A stretch of DNA of 64,000 nt, taken from positions 7,192,001 to 7,256,000 of the forward strand of contig NZ_CP108474.1 in the NCBI RefSeq assembly GCF_036226445.1, in the 5' to 3' direction. The notes beneath the pieces were generated by a model. It did not search any database, was not told where the DNA came from, and worked only from the letters and a program-made list of their open reading frames with translations. How positions within the stretch are numbered: position 1 is the first letter of the stretch; each line of letters begins with the position of its first letter. A program made the position numbers and the translations under genes. This document shows positions 10,027 to 45,775 of this stretch, piece by piece. The DNA comes from Streptomyces sp. NBC_01255. GTDB lineage: Bacteria; Actinomycetota; Actinomycetes; Streptomycetales; Streptomycetaceae.

Positions 10027-11011
10027 CCGGTACGTGGGGGCGCAAGGCCTCCGCCACCGCCGCCGCGATCCGGGCGTGACCCCCGTCGTTCGGGTGGAGT
10101 CCGTCCGCCAGGTGCTCGGGGCCGAGCAGGGAGCGCCCCGGGAGGACCAGGAGCCGTCCGTCGCCCTCGGCCGCCAGGTCGCGGCCCGCGCGTTCCATGG
10201 CCCTGCGCAGCTCCGTGAGGGTGGCTCCGAGGACGTTGCGGGTGTGCTCGGCCTCCGGGCGCAGGACGGGCGAGACGATCAGCAGCGGGGTGTCCGGATG
10301 GCCCCGCCGGACCAGGCCCACGAACGCCCGGACGGTCGCGTACAGCCAGTCCGCGGTCGCGGGCACCCGGGACCAGCAGTTGGTGCCGAAGGCGAGGGTG
10401 ACCACCTCGCCCGGGAGCCGCGCGAGGTGCTCGGCCAGGGGGAGCTCGCCGCGCGCCCCGCCCGCGTACCCCAGATTGACCGGGTCGAGCCCGAGCAGCC
10501 GTCCCGCCGTGGCGGGCCAGGAGTGCGCGGGACGGGTCGCCCACCAGCCCTCGGTGATCGAGTCGCCGTGGACGAGCCAGCGGGGCCGGACCGGGGCGGG
10601 GGAGAGGCGGCCGCCGACGGCCCGCAGGGCGAGCGGGACCGGTGACTGGCCCTCGGGGAGGTGGACGGTGAAGACGCCGCCGTACGGGGGCAGGGGGAGG
10701 CTCACCGTGCCCTCCGGCGCCGGGACGGCGCAGGTCTCGCCGACGAGCCGCCGGCCCTGCCAGAGCGCGAAGCAGTGGCGCAGCGCGGCGAGCGGGTCCT
10801 CCGGCTCCGGGACGGCCGCGCGGTAGCGCAGCTCCAGCGCCCGCGTCCCGGGCTCCGCCGTGAACTCGATGCGTACGCCGATGGGCAGCGCGGCCCGCTC
10901 GGCGATGTCCCACGGGAGCCGCTCCAGGTCGGCCGGATCCGCCCGCACGGGCCGGTCCCCGTCGAGCCAGGCCGTGCCGCGCAGGAAGGGCGCCGGGGCG
11001 AGCCAGCCCAC
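9998..11011 (-). CDS. SGNH/GDSL-family hydrolase with N-terminal beta domain
   Basis: This 337-residue protein starts at GTG 11011 with GGAGG seven bases before it. An N-terminal region of about 145 residues looks like a beta-sandwich carbohydrate-esterase module. It is followed by a GDSL domain with block I LVHGDSITEGW, block III FGTNCWS and block V DGLHPNDGGH holding the catalytic Asp-His. There is no signal peptide, so it is probably intracellular. It is likely an ester hydrolase on sugar or lipid substrates; the exact substrate cannot be read. The GTG is divergent from the 34-bp repeat block and the permease. Confidence 0.88.
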   Translation of the reverse strand: MGWLAPAPFLRGTAWLDGDRPVRADPADLERLPWDIAERAALPIGVRIEFTAEPGTRALELRYRAAVPEPEDPLAALRHCFALWQGRRLVGETCAVPAPEGTVSLPLPPYGGVFTVHLPEGQSPVPLALRAVGGRLSPAPVRPRWLVHGDSITEGWWATRPAHSWPATAGRLLGLDPVNLGYAGGARGELPLAEHLARLPGEVVTLAFGTNCWSRVPATADWLYATVRAFVGLVRRGHPDTPLLIVSPVLRPEAEHTRNVLGATLTELRRAMERAGRDLAAEGDGRLLVLPGRSLLGPEHLADGLHPNDGGHARIAAAVAEALRPHVPVSRPVSPAA

Positions 11012-11089
11012 CGAGGCCTCCGATCGTGGGTTTCCGGGGGCTCGCAGCGTGGGTCATGGGGCACGAGGAGTCAAGGCACGTGCACGCGC

Positions 11090-11225
11090 GCGTGGACCGC
11101 CTCGGCCGGCCTGCGCACGCGACGCGTGGACCGCCTCGGCCGGCCTGCGCACGCGACGCGTGGACCGCCTCGGCCGGCCCGCGCACGCGACGCGTCGACC
11201 GCCTCGGCCGAGCCCCGCGTACTCG
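11090..11225. repeat. Four tandem 34-bp repeats
   Basis: Units start at 11090, 11124, 11158 and 11192. The first three are nearly identical and the fourth diverges at its end. Each unit holds a central palindrome GGCCGGCC and inverted flanks (CGCGTG and CACGCG), so each could form a stem-loop. There are no unique spacers, so this is not a CRISPR array. It occupies the 489-bp gap between the divergent SGNH hydrolase and permease genes, directly upstream of the permease regulatory region. Confidence 0.85.
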
Positions 11226-11274
11226 TACGCGGAGTGAGCCTCAGGCCCCCAATGTGCCGATTCATGCAGGGGCG

Positions 11275-11370
11275 CGCAATGTTTCCCCGTCTGCGCCGCG
11301 AGCGCGCAATGATCATCCGGCAGTGCGCAACAACCCTGCATTACGACTGCGAACCTCAGCCCCTTAGGCT
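11275..11370 (+). promoter_or_regulatory. Permease promoter with CGCAA box array (candidate Lrp sites)
   Basis: CGCAA boxes occur at 11275, 11305 and 11326. A weak -35 TTACGA (11341-11346), an 18-base spacer and -10 TAGGCT (11365-11370) follow. The same box spacing and the same distance to -35/-10 recur before davA. The lrp gene lies just downstream of the permease, and Lrp proteins typically bind phased arrays like this. The -35 is poor, as expected for an activated promoter. Confidence 0.55.
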
Positions 11371-11500
11371 CGTGCCCCGTACCAGGAGTGGCGGCGACCG
11401 CCTGCTCGGCGGTTCCCCTTCCCCGTGGGCTTGCTTCGGCATGCCCACGAGCCGCCGTGGTCGTCCCACCGCCTACAGGCAGCGATAAGGAGCCTCCGCA

Positions 11501-12991
11501 GTGCTGGACCACGGCGCAGCCCCACCGGTCGTCGACACGACCACCCCCAAGACCTCCGCGCTCGGCGCACTCACCCGGCGCAAGCCGGTGGAACGCCTGG
11601 TCATGGAGGGTGGGCAGGGTGAGGGCGGCAGCCTCCGCCGCTCGCTCTCCATGTGGCAGCTGACCATGATCAGCATCGGTGCCACGCTCGGCACCGGCAT
11701 CTTCGTCGTCCTCGGCGACGCCGTTCCGCAGGCCGGCCCCGCGGTCACCCTGGCCTTCGTGATCGCCGGCCTCACGGCGCTCTTCTCGGCCCTCTCGTAC
11801 GCCGAGCTGGCCGGCACCATCCCGGTCGCCGGCTCCTCTTACTCGTACGCGTACGCAACGATGGGCGAACTCGTCGCCTGGGTCTGCGGCTGGTGCCTGG
11901 TCCTGGAGTACGGCGTCTCCGTCGCCGCCGTGGCCGTCGGCTGGGGCGAGTACGTCAACGAACTCCTCGACGGCACCATCGGCGTCACCATCCCCGACGC
12001 GCTCTCCTCCGCGCCCGGCGAGGGCGGCATCATCAACCTGCCGGCCCTGATCGTCGTCCTGCTGGCGATGGTCTTCCTGCTCGGCGGCGCCAAGGAGTCG
12101 GCCCGCGCCAACACGATCATGGTCGTCGTGAAGATCGCCGCGCTCGTGCTCTTCTGCACCATCGGCTTCATGGGCTTCAAGTCCGGCAACTACTCCGACT
12201 TCATGCCGCTCGGCATGGCCGGGGTCAGCGCCGCCGGCGCCAGCCTCTTCTTCTCGTACATCGGCTTCGACGCCGCCTCCACCGCCGGTGAGGAGGCGAA
12301 GAACCCGCAGCGCGACCTGCCGCGGGCGATCATGCTCTCGCTGATCATCGTCACCACCCTGTACGTCCTCGTGGCCGCCGTCGCCGTCGGCGCGTGGAAC
12401 TGGAAGGACTTCGAGGGCTCCGAGGCCTCCCTCGCCGCGATCATGAACGACGTGAGCGGCCAGACCTTCTGGGGCACGCTGCTCGCCGCCGGCGCCGTCA
12501 TCTCCATCGCGAGCGTCGTCCTGACCGTCCTCTACGGCCAGACCCGAGTCCTCTTCGCCATGTCCCGCGACGGCCTCGTCCCGAAGGTCTTCGGGAAGGT
12601 CAGCCCCAAGACCGGCACCCCGCGGGTCAACACCGTGATCGTGTCGATCTTCTGCGGTGTCCTCGCGGCCGCCATCCCGCTCGGCGAGCTCGTCGACGCC
12701 ACCAGCATCGGCACCCTCTTCGCCTTCGCGCTGGTCAACATCGCGGTGGTGATCCTGCGCAAGACCCGCCCGGACATGAAGCGCACGTTCCGCGTGCCGC
12801 TCGGCTGGCTCTTCCCGGTCCTCGGCTTCGGCTTCTGCGTCTACAACATGTTCAGCCTCGGCGCCTCCACCTGGACGGTCTTCGGTTGCTGGATGGCCGC
12901 CGGGCTCGTGTTCTACTTCCTGTACGGAATGCGCCGTTCCCGACTGGCCACCGCGGCGCCCGCAGAATCAGCGGCATCGACAGAGAAGTGA
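11501..12991 (+). CDS. APC-family cationic amino-acid permease
   Basis: This 496-residue protein starts at GTG 11501, eight bases after AAGGAG. About 12-14 membrane segments follow a 45-residue cytosolic N-terminus. The APC signature after TM1 start is ISIGATLGTGIFVVLG, and the CAT-type features EYGVSVAAVAVGWGEYVNEL and SYIGFDAASTAGEEAKNPQRD are present, the latter being the hallmark of eukaryote-like cationic amino-acid transporters. It probably imports lysine or arginine. It forms an operon with lrp 10 bp downstream and lies next to davA/davB, which degrade lysine, so lysine uptake is the best guess. Confidence 0.92.
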   Translation: MLDHGAAPPVVDTTTPKTSALGALTRRKPVERLVMEGGQGEGGSLRRSLSMWQLTMISIGATLGTGIFVVLGDAVPQAGPAVTLAFVIAGLTALFSALSYAELAGTIPVAGSSYSYAYATMGELVAWVCGWCLVLEYGVSVAAVAVGWGEYVNELLDGTIGVTIPDALSSAPGEGGIINLPALIVVLLAMVFLLGGAKESARANTIMVVVKIAALVLFCTIGFMGFKSGNYSDFMPLGMAGVSAAGASLFFSYIGFDAASTAGEEAKNPQRDLPRAIMLSLIIVTTLYVLVAAVAVGAWNWKDFEGSEASLAAIMNDVSGQTFWGTLLAAGAVISIASVVLTVLYGQTRVLFAMSRDGLVPKVFGKVSPKTGTPRVNTVIVSIFCGVLAAAIPLGELVDATSIGTLFAFALVNIAVVILRKTRPDMKRTFRVPLGWLFPVLGFGFCVYNMFSLGASTWTVFGCWMAAGLVFYFLYGMRRSRLATAAPAESAASTEK

Positions 12992-13001
12992 TCCACCCGT
13001 A

Positions 13002-13457
13002 GTGCGACTCAACGACCTCGACGAACGCATCGTCCACGCCCTCGCGGAAGACGCCCGCCGCAGCTACGCCGACATCGGCTCGCTGGTCGGTCTCTCCGCA
13101 CCCGCCGTGAAACGGCGCGTGGACCGGCTCAGGGCCGAGGGCGCCATCACCGGATTCACCGTACGGGTGGACCCGGCGGCGCTCGGCTGGGAGACCGAGG
13201 GTTTCGTCGAGATCTACTGCCGCCACAACACCTCGCCGAACGACATCCGGCGAGGTCTGGAGCGGTATCCCGAGGTGGTGTCCGCGTCGACCGTCACCGG
13301 TGACGCGGACGCCGTCGTCCAGGTCTTCGCCTCGGACATGCGCCACTTCGAGCGCGTCCTGGAGCGCATCGCGGGCGAGCCCTTCGTGGAGCGCACCAAG
13401 TCCGTCCTGGTGCTCTCGCCGCTGCTGCGGCGCTTCTCCTCGGGCTCGCCCGCGTAG
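13002..13457 (+). CDS. Lrp/AsnC family transcriptional regulator (probable local regulator of the lysine module)
   Basis: This 151-residue protein starts at GTG 13002, ten bases after the permease stop. It has an N-terminal winged HTH (about residues 3-55: LNDLDERIVHALAEDARRSY, then GLSAPAVKRRVDRL) and a C-terminal RAM ligand-binding domain. Position in the permease operon and the phased CGCAA boxes in front of both the permease and davA make it the obvious candidate regulator, with lysine as likely effector. That link is inferred from context only. Confidence 0.93.
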   Translation: MRLNDLDERIVHALAEDARRSYADIGSLVGLSAPAVKRRVDRLRAEGAITGFTVRVDPAALGWETEGFVEIYCRHNTSPNDIRRGLERYPEVVSASTVTGDADAVVQVFASDMRHFERVLERIAGEPFVERTKSVLVLSPLLRRFSSGSPA

Positions 13458-13489
13458 CACTGCTCGGTCCTGCGGGGCACCGGCGGTCG

Positions 13490-13521
13490 GGGCGGTGCGG
13501 GCCGTGGTTCCCGCACCGCCC
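13490..13521. terminator. Bidirectional hairpin between lrp and the secreted-protein gene
   Basis: A perfect 12-bp stem (13490-13501 with 13510-13521) with an eight-base loop sits between converging genes. Confidence 0.7.
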
Positions 13522-13548
13522 TTCGCCCGCCCACCCCCGTAGGGCGGT

Positions 13549-14109
13549 CTACTCGGTCGGGTAGACGAACTCCCAGGGCACGACCTTGAAGTCGCCCGTC
13601 CCCTCCTTGACCTTCTCGAACGGCGCGCCGCTGATGCACGGCGGCACCTTGTCCTTCTGCGGGTCGGCGGTCATCCAGGTGTAGCCCAGCCGGTCGCCGT
13701 TGGCGTCGTCGTGCACGGTGACCCCGACGCGGGCCTTCCGGAACTCCTTCACATCGGTCTTCGTGACGACACCGGAGACGACGGCCACCTTGCCGCCCGT
13801 GGTGAGGCAGTCGACCTTCACCTCCGCGTAGCCGCCCCAGTCGCCCTTGTAGTGGCTGAAGCGGAACGTGCCCGTGGCCTTCATCGGATCCTGCCGGTTC
13901 TTCTCGGCGAGGTGCGCGTCGAATGTGAAGGTGATGTCGTCCCCGGCCGGCCGGTACAGCTTCGCGGTGCCGGTCAGCGCGGCGGCCTCCTTGACGGTGG
14001 CCGAGGCCGCGGCCGGGGCGGGAGCATCGTCCGCCGCGGCCATGCCCCCGGCCCCCAGGGTGAGCAGAACGGCGGCGGCGACGGCGACGGTCTTCGTACG
14101 ACGGTTCAT
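13549..14109 (-). CDS. Secreted protein of unknown function
   Basis: This 186-residue protein starts at ATG 14109. The N-terminus NRRTKTVAVAAAVLLTLGAG followed by an Ala-Ala-Asp boundary near residue 26 is a clear Sec signal peptide. The mature part begins with an Ala/Pro stretch and then a beta-rich domain. That domain has two cysteines (in VDCLTTGG and PPCISG) that could form a disulfide, and a repeated hydrophobic-charged pattern (FTFDAHL, GTFRFSHY). I recognise no catalytic motif. It is divergent from davA across 296 bp. Confidence 0.8.
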   Translation of the reverse strand: MNRRTKTVAVAAAVLLTLGAGGMAAADDAPAPAAASATVKEAAALTGTAKLYRPAGDDITFTFDAHLAEKNRQDPMKATGTFRFSHYKGDWGGYAEVKVDCLTTGGKVAVVSGVVTKTDVKEFRKARVGVTVHDDANGDRLGYTWMTADPQKDKVPPCISGAPFEKVKEGTGDFKVVPWEFVYPTE

Positions 14110-14260
14110 GGTCTTTCCCGGTCCTTTCGGCAGGTCGTCCGGCAGGTCGTCCGGACGAGGACCACTCTTCCGCTCAGGCCGCGCCGGGGCGTCGCGCCGC
14201 AGGACGGTTCCCGTCTCCGCCGCGCGGCGGGGGAGCCGTACGACCCCTGGCGGAGCCGTA

Positions 14261-14358
14261 CGCAACGAATCGCCACGGTGGCCGTGGATCGCGCAATGGT
14301 TCGACGGTCGGTCCGCAACGCTCCCGCCTTGTCCGGACGGAGCGCGAAACCGTACCGT
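14261..14358 (+). promoter_or_regulatory. davA promoter with CGCAA box array matching the permease promoter
   Basis: CGCAA boxes start at 14261, 14292 and 14314. A -35 TTGTCC (14329-14334), an 18-base spacer and -10 TACCGT (14353-14358) follow. Box intervals are 31 and 22 here against 30 and 21 at the permease, and the distance from third box to -35 is the same at both. Another GCGAA lies inside the spacer. A direct repeat GGAGCCGTACG occurs just upstream at 14232 and 14252. Confidence 0.55.
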
Positions 14359-14405
14359 TTTTGACGTCTTCCCCTTGTACTCCGACCCCCCCCCGAGGAT
14401 CGCTC

Positions 14406-15212
14406 ATGCCCGCGCTGCGCACCGCCCTGCTCCAGAGCTCCGGCGAGCTCGGTGACGTGGCCGCCAATCTCAAGATCCTCGACGAGGCCGCCGCCCGCGC
14501 CGCGGCCGCCGGAGCGGGCCTGCTGCTCGCCCCCGAGCTGTTCCTCACCGGGTACGCCATCGGCGCCGACATCGCGCGCCTGGCCGAGCCGGCCGACGGC
14601 CCCTCCGCCCGCGCCGTCGCGGCGATCGCCGTGCGCCACGGCCTCGCCGTCGGCTACGGCTACCCGGAGCGCGACACCGAGCGGCACGGGGTCCTGTACA
14701 ACTCGGCGCAGCTCATCGGCGCCGACGGCGTCCCGCTCGCGCAGTACCGGAAGACCCATCTCTTCGGAGACTTCGAGCTGACGTGGTTCACCCCCGGTGA
14801 CCAGGCCGTCGTCCAGGCGGAGGTCGACGGCCTCACCGTCGGCGTGATGATCTGCTACGACGTCGAGTTCCCCGAGAACGTACGGGCGCACGCGCTGGCG
14901 GGTACGGACCTCCTCCTCGTACCGACCGCGCTGATGCACCCCGCCGAGATCGTGCCCCTGTCCGTGGTGCCGGTCCGCGCCTTCGAGAACCAGCTCTACA
15001 TCGCGTACGCCAACCGGACCGGCTCCGAGGGCGCCTTCGAGTTCGTCGGCCTCTCCGCCCTGGCCGGCCCCGACGGTACCGCTCGGGCCCGTGCCGGGCG
15101 CGGCGAGGACCTCGTCTTCGGCGACGTCGACACCGACTTCCTGGCGGCCTCCCGCGCGGAGAACCCCTACCTCCGCGACCGGCGCCCGGGTCTCTACGGC
15201 CCCCTCGTCTGA
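14406..15212 (+). CDS. davA: Carbon-nitrogen hydrolase, probable 5-aminovaleramidase (DavA-like)
   Basis: This 268-residue nitrilase-superfamily enzyme has its Glu-Lys-Cys triad visible as E44 (APELFLTGY), K116 (YRKTHLFG) and C150 (MICYDVEFPEN). The length and motif spacing resemble Pseudomonas DavA (about 264 residues), which hydrolyses 5-aminopentanamide to 5-aminovalerate. The downstream gene encodes a DavB-like lysine monooxygenase that would supply the amide, 59 bp away on the same strand. ATG 14406 follows CGAGGA. A generic short-chain amidase is the alternative, but the pairing strongly favours DavA. Confidence 0.85.
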   Translation: MPALRTALLQSSGELGDVAANLKILDEAAARAAAAGAGLLLAPELFLTGYAIGADIARLAEPADGPSARAVAAIAVRHGLAVGYGYPERDTERHGVLYNSAQLIGADGVPLAQYRKTHLFGDFELTWFTPGDQAVVQAEVDGLTVGVMICYDVEFPENVRAHALAGTDLLLVPTALMHPAEIVPLSVVPVRAFENQLYIAYANRTGSEGAFEFVGLSALAGPDGTARARAGRGEDLVFGDVDTDFLAASRAENPYLRDRRPGLYGPLV

Positions 15213-15271
15213 GCCGTCCCCACCCCCCGACCTGCCTCGTCTTTCTTTTCCGTGCAAGGAGTCCGTACCCC

Positions 15272-16969
15272 ATGACGTCCACGGTGCCCACGACCGCCGT
15301 CCCCCACAGCGACGGCCAGCCGCCGATCACCATGTTCGGTCCGGACTTCCCGTACGCGTACGACGACTTCCTGGCCCACCCGGCCGGTCTCGGCCAGATA
15401 CCGGCCACCGAGCACGGCACCGAGGTCGCCGTCATCGGCGGCGGGCTCTCCGGCATCATCGCCGCGTACGAGCTCATGAAGATGGGCCTCAAGCCCGTCG
15501 TCTACGAGGCCGACCAGATCGGCGGCCGGCTGCGGACCGTCGGCTTCGAGGGCACCGCCACCGAGGGCCTCACCGCGGAGATGGGCGCGATGCGCTTCCC
15601 GCCGTCCTCGACCGCGCTCCAGCACTACATCGACCTCGTCGGCCTGGAGACCACGCCCTTCCCGAACCCGCTTGCCGAGTCGACCCCCTCGACCGTCGTC
15701 GACCTCAAGGGCGAGTCGCACTACGCCACCACCGTCGACGACCTCCCGCAGGTCTACCGCGACGTGATGAACGCGTGGAACGCCTGCCTGGACGAGGGCG
15801 CCGACTTCTCCGACATGAACCAGGCCATGCGCGAGCGCGACGTCCCGCGCATCCGCGAGATCTGGTCGAAGCTCGTCGAGAAGCTCGACAACCAGACCTT
15901 CTACGGCTTCCTCTGCGAGTCGGAGTCCTTCAAGTCCTTCCGGCACCGCGAGATCTTCGGCCAGGTCGGCTTCGGCACCGGCGGCTGGGACACCGACTTC
16001 CCCAACTCCATCCTGGAGATCCTCCGCGTCGTCTACACCGAGGCGGACGACCACCACCGCGGCATCGTGGGCGGCTCGCAGCAGCTGCCGCTGCGCCTGT
16101 GGGAGCGCGAGCCGGAGAAGATCGTCCACTGGGCGCCGGGTACTTCGCTCAGCTCCCTGCACGAGGGCACCCCGAAGCCGGCCGTGACCCGGCTGAACCG
16201 GACCGCCGGCAACCGGATCACCGTCACCGACGCCTCCGGCGACATCCGCACCTTCCCGGCGGCGATCTTCACCGCCCAGTCCTGGATGCTGCTCTCCAAG
16301 ATCGCCTGCGACGACTCGCTCTTCCCGATCGACCACTGGACGGCGATCGAGCGCACCCACTACATGGAGTCCTCGAAGCTCTTCGTCCCCGTCGACAGGC
16401 CGTTCTGGCTGGACAAGGACGAGGAGACCGGCCGGGACGTCATGTCGATGACGCTCACCGACCGGATGACCCGCGGCACGTACCTCCTGGACGACGGCCC
16501 GGACAAGCCGGCCACGATCTGCCTCTCGTACACCTGGTGCGACGACAGCCTGAAGTGGCTGCCGCTCTCCGCCAACGAGCGGATGGAGGTCATGCTGAAG
16601 TCGCTCGGCGAGATCTACCCGAAGGTCGACATCCGGAAGCACATCATCGGCAACCCGGTGACGGTCTCCTGGGAGAACGAGCCCTACTTCATGGGCGCCT
16701 TCAAGGCGAACCTGCCGGGCCACTACCGCTACCAGCGCCGCCTGTTCACGCACTTCATGCAGGAGCGGCTGCCCGAGGACAAGCGGGGCATCTTCCTCGC
16801 GGGCGACGACATCTCCTGGACGGCCGGCTGGGCCGAGGGCGCGGTGCAGACGGCGCTCAACGCGGTGTGGGGCGTGATGCACCACTTCGGCGGCGGCACC
16901 GACGCCACCAACCCGGGTCCGGGCGACGTCTACGAGGACATCGCCCCGGTCGAGCTGCCGGAGGACTGA
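15272..16969 (+). CDS. davB: Flavin monooxygenase of the amine oxidase family, probable L-lysine 2-monooxygenase (DavB-like)
   Basis: This 565-residue protein has the FAD dinucleotide fold at residues 52-80 (AVIGGGLSGIIAAYELMKMG, with E79 binding ribose). A second FAD contact near the C-terminus is FLAGDDISWTAGWAEGAVQ. From memory it matches P. putida DavB along most of its length, including ITIFGPDFP-like and QVGFGTGGWDSDFPNS-like segments (here ITMFGPDFPYAYDDF and QVGFGTGGWDTDFPNS). DavB converts L-lysine and oxygen to 5-aminopentanamide. It is preceded by davA. An amino-acid oxidase or tryptophan 2-monooxygenase is the less likely alternative. Confidence 0.86.
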   Translation: MTSTVPTTAVPHSDGQPPITMFGPDFPYAYDDFLAHPAGLGQIPATEHGTEVAVIGGGLSGIIAAYELMKMGLKPVVYEADQIGGRLRTVGFEGTATEGLTAEMGAMRFPPSSTALQHYIDLVGLETTPFPNPLAESTPSTVVDLKGESHYATTVDDLPQVYRDVMNAWNACLDEGADFSDMNQAMRERDVPRIREIWSKLVEKLDNQTFYGFLCESESFKSFRHREIFGQVGFGTGGWDTDFPNSILEILRVVYTEADDHHRGIVGGSQQLPLRLWEREPEKIVHWAPGTSLSSLHEGTPKPAVTRLNRTAGNRITVTDASGDIRTFPAAIFTAQSWMLLSKIACDDSLFPIDHWTAIERTHYMESSKLFVPVDRPFWLDKDEETGRDVMSMTLTDRMTRGTYLLDDGPDKPATICLSYTWCDDSLKWLPLSANERMEVMLKSLGEIYPKVDIRKHIIGNPVTVSWENEPYFMGAFKANLPGHYRYQRRLFTHFMQERLPEDKRGIFLAGDDISWTAGWAEGAVQTALNAVWGVMHHFGGGTDATNPGPGDVYEDIAPVELPED

Positions 16970-17015
16970 GTCCCGGCCGTACGGCTCCCCGCCGTACGGA
17001 TCCCGCCCGTACGGG

Positions 17016-17735
17016 TCACGGCCTGGTGAGCGGCGTGAGCAGCATCCGCCCCACCAGGCCCACCGACCGGTCGAGCCGTTCGGTGAACTCCTCGGCCAGC
17101 TCCGGCAGCCCGCGCAGCTGCCAGAGCGAGCGCGCCGCCAGCCAGGCCCCGTCGCGGGCCCGGTCCAGGCTCCAGCAGCCGAGCAGATGCGTCAGCGGGT
17201 CCGCGATCTCCAGGAGGTCCGGGCCCGGCATCAGTTCCTCCCTGATGCGCTCCTCCAGGAGGACGAGGATGTCGCCGACCCGGTCGAACTCGTCCTCCAG
17301 GTCGGCGGGCGCGCACTCCAGGGCGCGGCACGTGTCGACCACCGCGAGCGCCAGGTCGTGGCCCACGTGGGCGTTGATCCCGGCGAGCGCGAACTGCAGC
17401 GGACGTACGCCGGGATGGCGCCGGTAGCGGAAGAGCGGCCGCCAGCAGGCGGGCGCCGGGCCGCCGGTGGCGACGGTGTCGACCGCCGTGAGGTAGCGCT
17501 CGGCGAAGCGCACGTCGAGGGTGGCGGCCGCCGTGCGGTCGGCGAAGGTGCCAGCCGCGATGGCGTGGCCGATCTCCTCGGTGACCGTCAGGTACACCCG
17601 GTTGAAGACGGCGACCCCGTCGGCCGGATGCCAGGTGGAACGGAGTGTCCGCATCCGGTCCACCACGGGGTCGACCGCCAGGAACGGCCCGAGGTGGTGA
17701 GCGAGGGGTTGCCCGATCTGCTGGGTCTGCGCCAT
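17016..17735 (-). CDS. DUF5995 family protein
   Basis: This is a 239-residue, mostly helical protein with no signal peptide or membrane segment. I associate the pattern HPADGVAVFNRVYLTVTEEI, then FAERYLTAVDT, RHPGVRPLQFALAGINAHVG and NxHxxxDL-like blocks with the DUF5995 family of actinobacteria. The conserved His and Asp in INAHVGHDLALAV might bind metal. The function is unknown. ATG 17735 is preferred; a GTG at 17807 immediately after the upstream stop is also in frame. It lies just downstream of the uracil/xanthine permease on the same strand. Confidence 0.8.
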   Translation of the reverse strand: MAQTQQIGQPLAHHLGPFLAVDPVVDRMRTLRSTWHPADGVAVFNRVYLTVTEEIGHAIAAGTFADRTAAATLDVRFAERYLTAVDTVATGGPAPACWRPLFRYRRHPGVRPLQFALAGINAHVGHDLALAVVDTCRALECAPADLEDEFDRVGDILVLLEERIREELMPGPDLLEIADPLTHLLGCWSLDRARDGAWLAARSLWQLRGLPELAEEFTERLDRSVGLVGRMLLTPLTRP

Positions 17736-24484: not shown

Positions 24485-24580
24485 AGGAAGGTGGGAATGG
24501 TCCCATGTGAGCCAGGCCACATGGCCTCGCCGGTATGGCCGGTCACGGGCCGTGGCACACTGGCCCTGTATCAGCAGCAG

Positions 24581-24704
24581 CGCACTCCGGGGTCGGTGTA
24601 ATTCCGAACCGGCGGTATAGTCCGCGACCCGTCCGCAGCCAGCGGCCGGTTGACCAGGTGAAACTCCTGGACCGACGGTGAAAGTCCGGATGGGAGGCAG
24701 TGCG
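24581..24704 (+). ncRNA. FMN riboswitch (RFN element)
   Basis: The conserved blocks are present in order: GGGGTCGGTGTAATTCCGAACCGGCGGTA at the start, the variable arm, then ACCGACGGTGAAAGTCCGGATGGGAGGCAGTG. The closing pair CGCACT/AGTGCG spans 24581-24704. It lies 179 bases before ribD and should shut down the rib operon when FMN is abundant. Confidence 0.96.
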
Positions 24705-24882
24705 CGGCGGGTGACTCCTTTCCAGGGGTGTGTCAGCCGTACGTCCGCTGGTCGCCGTGTCGGAAACGATCGGCGTACCCGTGGGACAGCGGCCTCGGCG
24801 CACCCTGCGCGAGGCGTCCTTCCCGCTCTCTGTCGTCATCGACAGGCCCCGGAGTCCGTGCCCGAAGAGGCAGGAGGACCCG

Positions 24883-45184: not shown

Positions 45185-45334
45185 CCGCATAACCGTGAGG
45201 CGGGATCCCGGGCCGGGTGCAAACCTGTGGCGTTCGTCACATGCCTGGCGCAGGTGCCCCGTGACCGCCCATAGCGCCCTATACGGGTCGCCCCCCGTTG
45301 TCCTGGGGCGCTCGCGGCGCACTAGGGTCACCGC

Positions 45335-45775
45335 ATGGAGGAGCTGGATCGTCAGATCGTCGAGTTGCTCGTCAAGGACGGGCGCATGAGCTACACCGAC
45401 CTGGGCAAGGCCACCGGCCTGTCCACATCGGCAGTGCATCAGCGCGTCCGCCGTCTCGAGCAGCGCGGAGTCATCCGCGGCTATGCCGCAGTCGTCGACC
45501 CGGAGGCCGTGGGTCTGCCGCTCACCGCCTTCATCTCGGTCAAACCCTTCGACCCGAGCGCCCCCGACGACACCCCCGACCGGCTCGCCGACATCCCGGA
45601 GATCGAGGCCTGCCACAGCGTCGCGGGCGACGAGAACTACATCCTCAAGGTCCGGGTCGCCACGCCGCTGGAGCTGGAACACCTGCTCAGCCGCATCCGC
45701 TCGCAGGCCGGTGTCTCCAGCCGGACGACCGTCGTCCTGTCCACCCCGTACGAGGCCCGGCCGCCGCGCATCTGA
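45335..45775 (+). CDS. Lrp/AsnC family transcriptional regulator
   Basis: This 146-residue protein has an N-terminal HTH (LDRQIVELLVKDGRMSYTDL, then GLSTSAVHQRVRRLEQRG) and a C-terminal RAM domain with EIEACHSVAGDENYILKVRV, the effector pocket region. It is followed 68 bp later by an amidohydrolase on the same strand, which may be its target. It differs clearly from the Lrp at 13002 (about 146 versus 151 residues and different helix 3). Confidence 0.94.
   Translation: MEELDRQIVELLVKDGRMSYTDLGKATGLSTSAVHQRVRRLEQRGVIRGYAAVVDPEAVGLPLTAFISVKPFDPSAPDDTPDRLADIPEIEACHSVAGDENYILKVRVATPLELEHLLSRIRSQAGVSSRTTVVLSTPYEARPPRI

Follow-up and report, generated by a model that had tools for sequence, protein, structure and literature searches.

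Introduction

The starter route of azalomycin comprises an arginine monooxygenase, a 4-guanidinobutyramide hydrolase and a coenzyme A (CoA) ligase (PMC5082578), the same marginolactone starter route is given in PMC10322714, and the arginine oxidase gene has served as a probe for locating marginolactone clusters (PMC4737276). A route from arginine to γ-aminobutyrate (GABA) was first described in Streptomyces griseus, with its first enzyme given as uncharacterised as of 2007 in PMC2242806, and Streptomyces coelicolor has a separate aminovalerate route that runs through polyamine-type enzymes (PMC9397018). Here we analyse a locus in which genes for a permease, an Lrp-type regulator, a nitrilase-type amidase and a flavin-dependent amino acid 2-monooxygenase (‘oxygenase’ hereafter) lie together in a 64 kb stretch (C1:7192001–7256000; ‘the window’ hereafter) of an 8.57 Mb Streptomyces genome. 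We take S. griseus to be the source of EC 1.13.12.1, and S. coelicolor presumably carries an orthologue of the window oxygenase, which we refer to in Streptomyces as the core oxygenase.

An earlier note on this DNA had read the locus as a probable module converting lysine to 5-aminovalerate. The gene families and the module itself stand, and the substrate is doubtful: on the strength of sequence comparisons, we favour over lysine, as the reasonably probable reading, a route that would run from arginine through 4-guanidinobutanamide and 4-guanidinobutanoate to GABA and urea. The enzyme family is already known, and the substrate reassignment is the new part; a literature search by title and abstract start, with most subscription journals outside its coverage, found no paper assigning a substrate to this locus.

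Results

Among solved proteins, the oxygenase is closest to the L-amino acid oxidase/monooxygenase of Pseudomonas sp. AIU 813 (3we0), which it matches at 1e-238 over residues 13–562 with ~59% identity, followed by tryptophan 2-monooxygenase at 6e-59. Because the top matches are 2-monooxygenases, we rejected a generic monoamine oxidase identity. In the numbering of the window oxygenase, R108, W239, D242, Y420, W422, F477 and W520 are retained from the Pseudomonas enzyme, where they correspond to Arg102, Trp235, Asp238, Tyr416, Trp418, Phe473 and Trp516. The retained set includes the contacts to the alpha-amino and carboxylate groups (Arg102 and Tyr416), the aromatic cage (Phe473 and Trp516) and the residue facing the basic side chain, Asp238, which binds the terminal positive group of lysine, ornithine or arginine and is Val in the tryptophan enzyme (PMC5832979). 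The window oxygenase differs at Cys254, Gln258 and Ala515, which are A258, H262 and G519. Since Asp238 is kept and the Pseudomonas relative accepts lysine, ornithine and arginine, with monooxygenase kcat/Km values of 74, 200 and 24 per s per mM, respectively (lysine measured at a different pH; PMC5832979), the substrate is likely a basic amino acid, and the sequence by itself leaves open which one.

The oxygenase tree was built from 57 sequences, with the 344-aa fragment L172 excluded and 25 sequences, mostly core Streptomyces and including four second copies, thinned beforehand. It contains a lysine clade of 16 sequences with support of 100/100, which the characterised lysine enzyme shares with Pseudomonas-type proteins, with five proteins from Rhodobacterales plasmids and with four from the actinobacterial phylum. 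The window oxygenase falls outside this clade and within another of 20 sequences, supported at only 94/90, that unites the Streptomyces core gene with families f89 and f99 and has Tsukamurella and genome G902 at its base. A further group, clade A (14 sequences, 90/87), consists of 12 Streptomyces second copies and two sequences from other families. The sister of the lysine clade is a small group (L117, L118, L180, L233 and L237), and L120/L176 of genome G398 form a long branch within the lysine clade. In the amidase tree, the deep root of which is weak, the window amidase groups with the amidases of the window clade and clade A (87/98).

At position 515 of the Pseudomonas enzyme, Ala is found in 15/16 lysine-clade sequences and Gly in all 39 other basic-type sequences, the window oxygenase among them; two tryptophan-type sequences, which also have Gly, stand outside that count of 39. 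The sole lysine-clade sequence with Gly515, L120, is also the one with a ureohydrolase gene nearby. Ala515 lies along the chain of bound lysine, and in tryptophan and phenylalanine enzymes a Gly here makes the pocket wider (PMC5832979); a pocket widened in this way would suit arginine. Cage position 516 is Phe in 14/14 clade-A sequences and Trp in the window and every other sequence. In a Streptomyces second copy outside clade A (L237, genome G959), residue 238 is Asn, and this change inactivated the Pseudomonas enzyme (PMC5832979). Separately, a protein named in a fungal record (P0286, Zasmidium cellare) is 85% identical to the Pseudomonas enzyme, which points to gene transfer or contamination.

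Within the window clade, a Tsukamurella plasmid (L151) carries ureohydrolase, permease, amidase and oxygenase genes consecutively; neighbouring genes overlap by 4 bp at the first and second junctions, with 23 bp at the third, and the permease of this run is 62% identical to that of the window. The same run occurs in G902 at 83–99% identity, and the two therefore probably reflect one event. Of the other ureohydrolase-linked members near the base of the clade, L223 has the ureohydrolase gene 0.75 kb away on the opposite strand and G654 has it ~9 kb from the oxygenase, and the flanks of both hold no amidase. At L224, also in the window clade, the oxygenase adjoins GabT, which would be usable by either an arginine or a lysine route. 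Outside the window clade, G544 has, no more than 10 kb from its amidase and oxygenase, genes for a ureohydrolase, a thiamine pyrophosphate (TPP) enzyme and a GABA transaminase as well as two that resemble semialdehyde dehydrogenase genes. At two actinobacterial lysine-clade loci (L234 and L235), amidase and oxygenase stand beside a GABA-transaminase-like gene, together with an acyl-CoA dehydrogenase at one and an aldehyde dehydrogenase at the other (family models below cut-offs throughout), and the genomes of both gave no ureohydrolase match; this GabT-bearing arrangement is how a complete lysine route would be expected to look. DavT-like neighbours were thus seen beside two lysine-clade loci and one window-clade locus. 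In G398 (L176, 6487–10465), a ureohydrolase of 46% identity lies 1.4 kb from a lysine-clade oxygenase, with an Amidase-family protein in between, perhaps marking a separate switch of substrate.

The genome of the window itself has three ureohydrolase-family matches, the strongest of them at 5581270–5582244 on C1. Its product is 64% identical to the Tsukamurella partner and, among solved proteins, matches guanidinobutyrase (3nio, presumably from P. aeruginosa) at 1e-84, followed by proclavaminate amidinohydrolase (3e-76), guanidinopropionase (4e-73) and agmatinase (2e-67). The neighbours of this gene on either side encode an SSF symporter and a TPP enzyme, the three genes lying in a row (L177, 8212–12531, 5.58 Mb), and the TPP enzyme resembles 5-guanidino-2-oxopentanoate decarboxylase, below the curated cut-off. 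The genome also carries GabT above the model cut-off, with flanks in which neither the module queries nor the ureohydrolase queries found a match.

Where the core oxygenase is present, so is this ureohydrolase. Across 121 Streptomycetaceae genomes, it was found in 63/63 with the core oxygenase and 18/58 without (Fisher 3e-18, a test that ignores relatedness). This count scores six genomes whose sole ureohydrolase match lies under ~67% identity as negative for the ureohydrolase, and three that have just the second-type oxygenase as negative for the core one; when neither choice is made, 66 genomes carry an oxygenase and 66/66 have some ureohydrolase match. All 23 further Streptomyces compared that have the oxygenase have the ureohydrolase too. 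In other families, at ≥65% identity, it is present in 18/18 window-clade genomes (14 from f89, 3 from f99 and G902), in 3/3 genomes from the sister group of the lysine clade (G253, G869 and G544), in 3/25 genomes without oxygenase, which were taken from those listed in the phylum- and class-wide surveys and are not a random draw, and in 0/4 with lysine-clade enzymes, two of which have matches at 44–46% and two none. Of nine oxygenase-free Streptomyces compared, the six that are 98–100% complete also lack the ureohydrolase and form one clade in the GabT tree. GabT is present in 6/6 of these well-assembled genomes, and therefore the use of GABA as such has not been lost; three other oxygenase-free genomes yielded no GabT match.

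Taken with the trees, these counts link the clade of the window oxygenase, whose joining fork has support of only 94/90, to guanidinobutyrase, as expected of an arginine 2-monooxygenase. Two marks of a lysine 2-monooxygenase (DavB), the second of them supporting rather than defining, are missing, in that the window enzyme is not a member of the lysine clade and no DavT/DavD-like genes were found nearby (E ≤ 1e-8 in the window, E ≤ 1e-25 at 80 related loci). Given this placement, Gly in place of Ala515 and the co-occurrence of the clade with a guanidinobutyrase-like ureohydrolase, the lysine substrate proposed earlier is not borne out as stated, although lysine keeps some probability.

The 80 related loci from named genomes are the best 80 of at least 588 stretches found in a protein-guided scan (79 Streptomyces records and one labelled Microtetraspora), and among them the closest relatives of the window locus are Streptomyces, with S. 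narbonensis at 99%. The amidase gene lies directly upstream of the oxygenase gene on the same strand in 80/80, with 42–297 bp between match ends, a pairing far beyond chance; the oxygenases have a median identity of 93% and the amidases one of 74%. A permease is present in 63/80 and an Lrp gene in 64/80, both occur in 63 and lie ≤80 bp apart in 62 of these, and the Lrp gene is ≤1.2 kb from the hydrolase in 43 of the 64 loci that have it. Because the same genes are grouped in actinobacterial family f89 (amidase in 13, permease in 12 and Lrp in 12 of 14 loci, 3 of them cut by contig ends), permease, Lrp, amidase and oxygenase form an old module. The earlier placing of a permease and an Lrp gene beside a DavB/DavA-type pair in an actinobacterium, here a Streptomyces, therefore holds. 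The oxygenase is carried by 238/246 sampled Streptomyces genomes (233/239 of good-quality ones), by 16/396 genomes phylum-wide, 12 of the 16 from Streptomyces, and by 64/394 class-wide. Second copies, most of them ~61–64% identical to the window oxygenase, occur in 16/246 Streptomyces genomes, and two more genomes with extra matches had split core genes only. The 16 second-copy loci that were fetched have flanks with polyketide synthase (PKS)-like motifs in 5 (L159, L161, L166, L170 and L171), ureohydrolase in 3 and neither in 8. In one Streptomyces genome (G162:C7:2032–3719, L137), the core oxygenase is split into two overlapping frames, by a frameshift or a sequencing error.

ORF and Pfam evidence confirms the four genes of the earlier note, all on one strand (Table 1). 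The permease also matches a cationic amino-acid carrier model, below the cut-off of that model, and its stop codon is separated by 10 bp from the start of the Lrp gene; 59 bp separate the hydrolase stop from the oxygenase start. For the hydrolase, whose nitrilase-type Glu-Lys-Cys triad was assigned by motif, the ATG listed is most likely the start rather than the longest-ORF start at 14361. The minus-strand ORF splits the regulator from the hydrolase, so the four genes are not a single operon here; it has counterparts in 33/80 related loci, with a median identity of ~60%. A promoter and terminator scan of 11000–17200, covering sigma-70-type sites only, detected nothing. The 64 kb window contains no match (tblastn, E ≤ 1e-8) to any of seven queries for GabT, semialdehyde dehydrogenase, ureohydrolase and TPP enzymes, which agrees with the earlier observation that DavT and DavD are absent from it. 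Other features of the window include a G+C-rich tandem array of a 34-bp unit ~290 bp upstream of the permease (11082–11210, 3.8 copies, 96% match), a second Lrp/AsnC-like protein at 45332–45748 with 33% identity to the module Lrp, and an FMN (flavin mononucleotide) riboswitch aptamer (RF00050) on the + strand at 24578–24707 (97.7 bits).

Table 1. Open reading frames (ORFs) of the locus, in window coordinates. FAD, flavin adenine dinucleotide.
Feature	Position	Strand	Evidence
APC-family amino-acid permease, 496 aa	11501..12991	+	GTG start, AAGGAG upstream; Pfam AA_permease_2 8.6e-56; NCBIfam TIGR00909 above cut-off
Lrp/AsnC-type regulator, 151 aa	13002..13457	+	Pfam HTH_AsnC-type and AsnC_trans_reg
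Secreted-looking ORF, 186 aa, between regulator and amidase, outside module	13549..14109	-	No Pfam match; signal-peptide look judged by eye
C-N hydrolase (nitrilase superfamily) amidase, DavA-like, 268 aa	14406..15212	+	CN_hydrolase 4e-46; E44-K116-C150
FAD amino-acid 2-monooxygenase, DavB-like, 565 aa	15272..16969	+	Amino_oxidase 1.7e-49; 3we0 E 1e-238

Discussion

We propose that Streptomyces carries a module, near-ubiquitous in sampled genomes, that uses O2 to break down a basic amino acid, most likely arginine. Import of the amino acid would fall to the permease, the flavoenzyme would convert L-arginine by oxidative decarboxylation to 4-guanidinobutanamide, and hydrolysis of this amide by the nitrilase-type amidase would yield ammonia and 4-guanidinobutanoate. 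From the latter, a guanidinobutyrase-like ureohydrolase whose gene lies elsewhere (5.58 Mb, C1) would release urea and GABA; GabT and a semialdehyde dehydrogenase could take the GABA on to succinate, and the Lrp protein probably senses the substrate. Gene identities, the conserved pocket, phylogeny, neighbour genes and co-occurrence are the observations from which we infer the substrate, regulation and flux. A wider version of this proposal could as well hold as fail: the locus would supply the unassigned first two steps of the arginine-to-GABA route known biochemically from S. griseus, with its guanidinobutyrase megabases away, the lysine and tryptophan names would be wrong clade-wide, and the PKS-linked arginine monooxygenases would be a separate specialised branch marked by the Trp-to-Phe change in the cage.

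Several observations weigh against arginine. S. lividans is reported in PMC5082578 to be without an arginine monooxygenase, and as a host of the azl cluster it made azalomycin only when fed 4-guanidinobutyramide. Judging from prevalence (238/246 Streptomyces have it), S. lividans probably carries the core oxygenase too, and if so this result is the strongest argument against arginine as the substrate of the core gene; low expression in the absence of arginine could be an alternative cause. The characterised relative has a higher monooxygenase kcat/Km on ornithine and lysine than on arginine (PMC5832979). In the genome studied here no ureohydrolase adjoins the oxygenase, with none in the 64 kb window (E ≤ 1e-8) and the genome's own copy at 5.58 Mb; the NCBIfam label of that copy is agmatinase, and because an SSF symporter and a TPP enzyme flank it, it may serve another role, or a second arginine route as well. 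Flanks of the 80 related loci gave neither Dav nor ureohydrolase genes (E ≤ 1e-25), those of L223 and L224 no detectable amidase, and the two genomes with only clade-A enzymes (G691 and G837) no ureohydrolase (0/2, ≥65% identity). The 65% identity cut-off was itself chosen after the matches were seen; at E ≤ 1e-40, some ureohydrolase is found in 10/25 genomes without oxygenase and in 2/4 with lysine-clade enzymes. Three of the nine oxygenase-free Streptomyces keep a ureohydrolase (one genome 82% complete, one 78% complete and one in 1140 contigs), and on a 28-sequence GabT tree the independent changes number three in the same direction, none in the opposite direction and one unchanged (p 0.25), so that the co-loss of oxygenase and ureohydrolase is suggestive and not significant.

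If lysine were the substrate, the pair would convert it to 5-aminopentanamide and 5-aminovalerate by the Dav route, and GabT-like and semialdehyde dehydrogenase enzymes encoded elsewhere would follow. The nearest solved enzyme is a lysine oxidase/monooxygenase (~59% identical) whose Asp238 and aromatic cage are retained, the genome has GabT above the cut-off, one window-clade locus (L224) has GabT next to the oxygenase, and the S. lividans azalomycin result (PMC5082578) would also fit. We nevertheless regard the Dav route as unlikely, since the window oxygenase lies outside the lysine clade, the lysine-clade loci L234 and L235 have GabT alongside and genomes without ureohydrolase, unlike the window clade, and lysine leaves the co-occurrence of guanidinobutyrase unexplained. 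A broad oxygenase for lysine, ornithine and arginine alike, with an equally broad amidase, seems to us less probable still: the Pseudomonas relative does act on all three (PMC5832979), the pocket Asp recognises a terminal positive charge, and the permease matches the cationic carrier model below its cut-off, but because partner genes differ between clades, one dominant substrate in each is suggested. The auxin-pathway tryptophan 2-monooxygenase, after which public records name several homologues, can practically be discounted. In the two tryptophan-type sequences, ~34% identical, Phe and Val take the places of W239 and D242 of the window oxygenase, in agreement with PMC5832979, and the annotation of their neighbour is ‘amidase family protein’; on these pocket residues and neighbour genes we rejected it.

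The choice of substrate matters because Streptomyces nitrogen metabolism feeds antibiotic production. With arginine, nearly the whole genus would have an O2-dependent route to GABA, public records naming the protein lysine or tryptophan 2-monooxygenase would carry the wrong substrate, and the locus would natively supply 4-guanidinobutanoate, which serves as a polyketide starter. With lysine, Streptomyces would have a Dav route besides the polyamine-type aminovalerate route of S. coelicolor (PMC9397018).

Comparison with known systems

With the Pseudomonas sp. AIU 813 enzyme (3we0, 5yb6–5yb8; EC 1.13.12.2), the window oxygenase shares full-length homology and the listed first-shell substrate residues except 258 and 515, and differs from it in overall sequence (~59% identity), in the changes C254A, Q258H and A515G, in belonging to another supported clade and in its partner genes. 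The arginine monooxygenase of marginolactone producers belongs to the same family, and we equate it, by neighbours only, with most of the second Streptomyces copies; whereas this type (clade A) has Phe at cage position 516 in 14/14 sequences, the window has Trp. DavA 5-aminovaleramidase and the 4-guanidinobutyramide hydrolase resemble the window hydrolase in gene position, as amidases adjoining an oxygenase. The arginine-to-GABA route of S. griseus has products that fit the action of oxygenase, amidase and guanidinobutyrase in sequence (PMC2242806).

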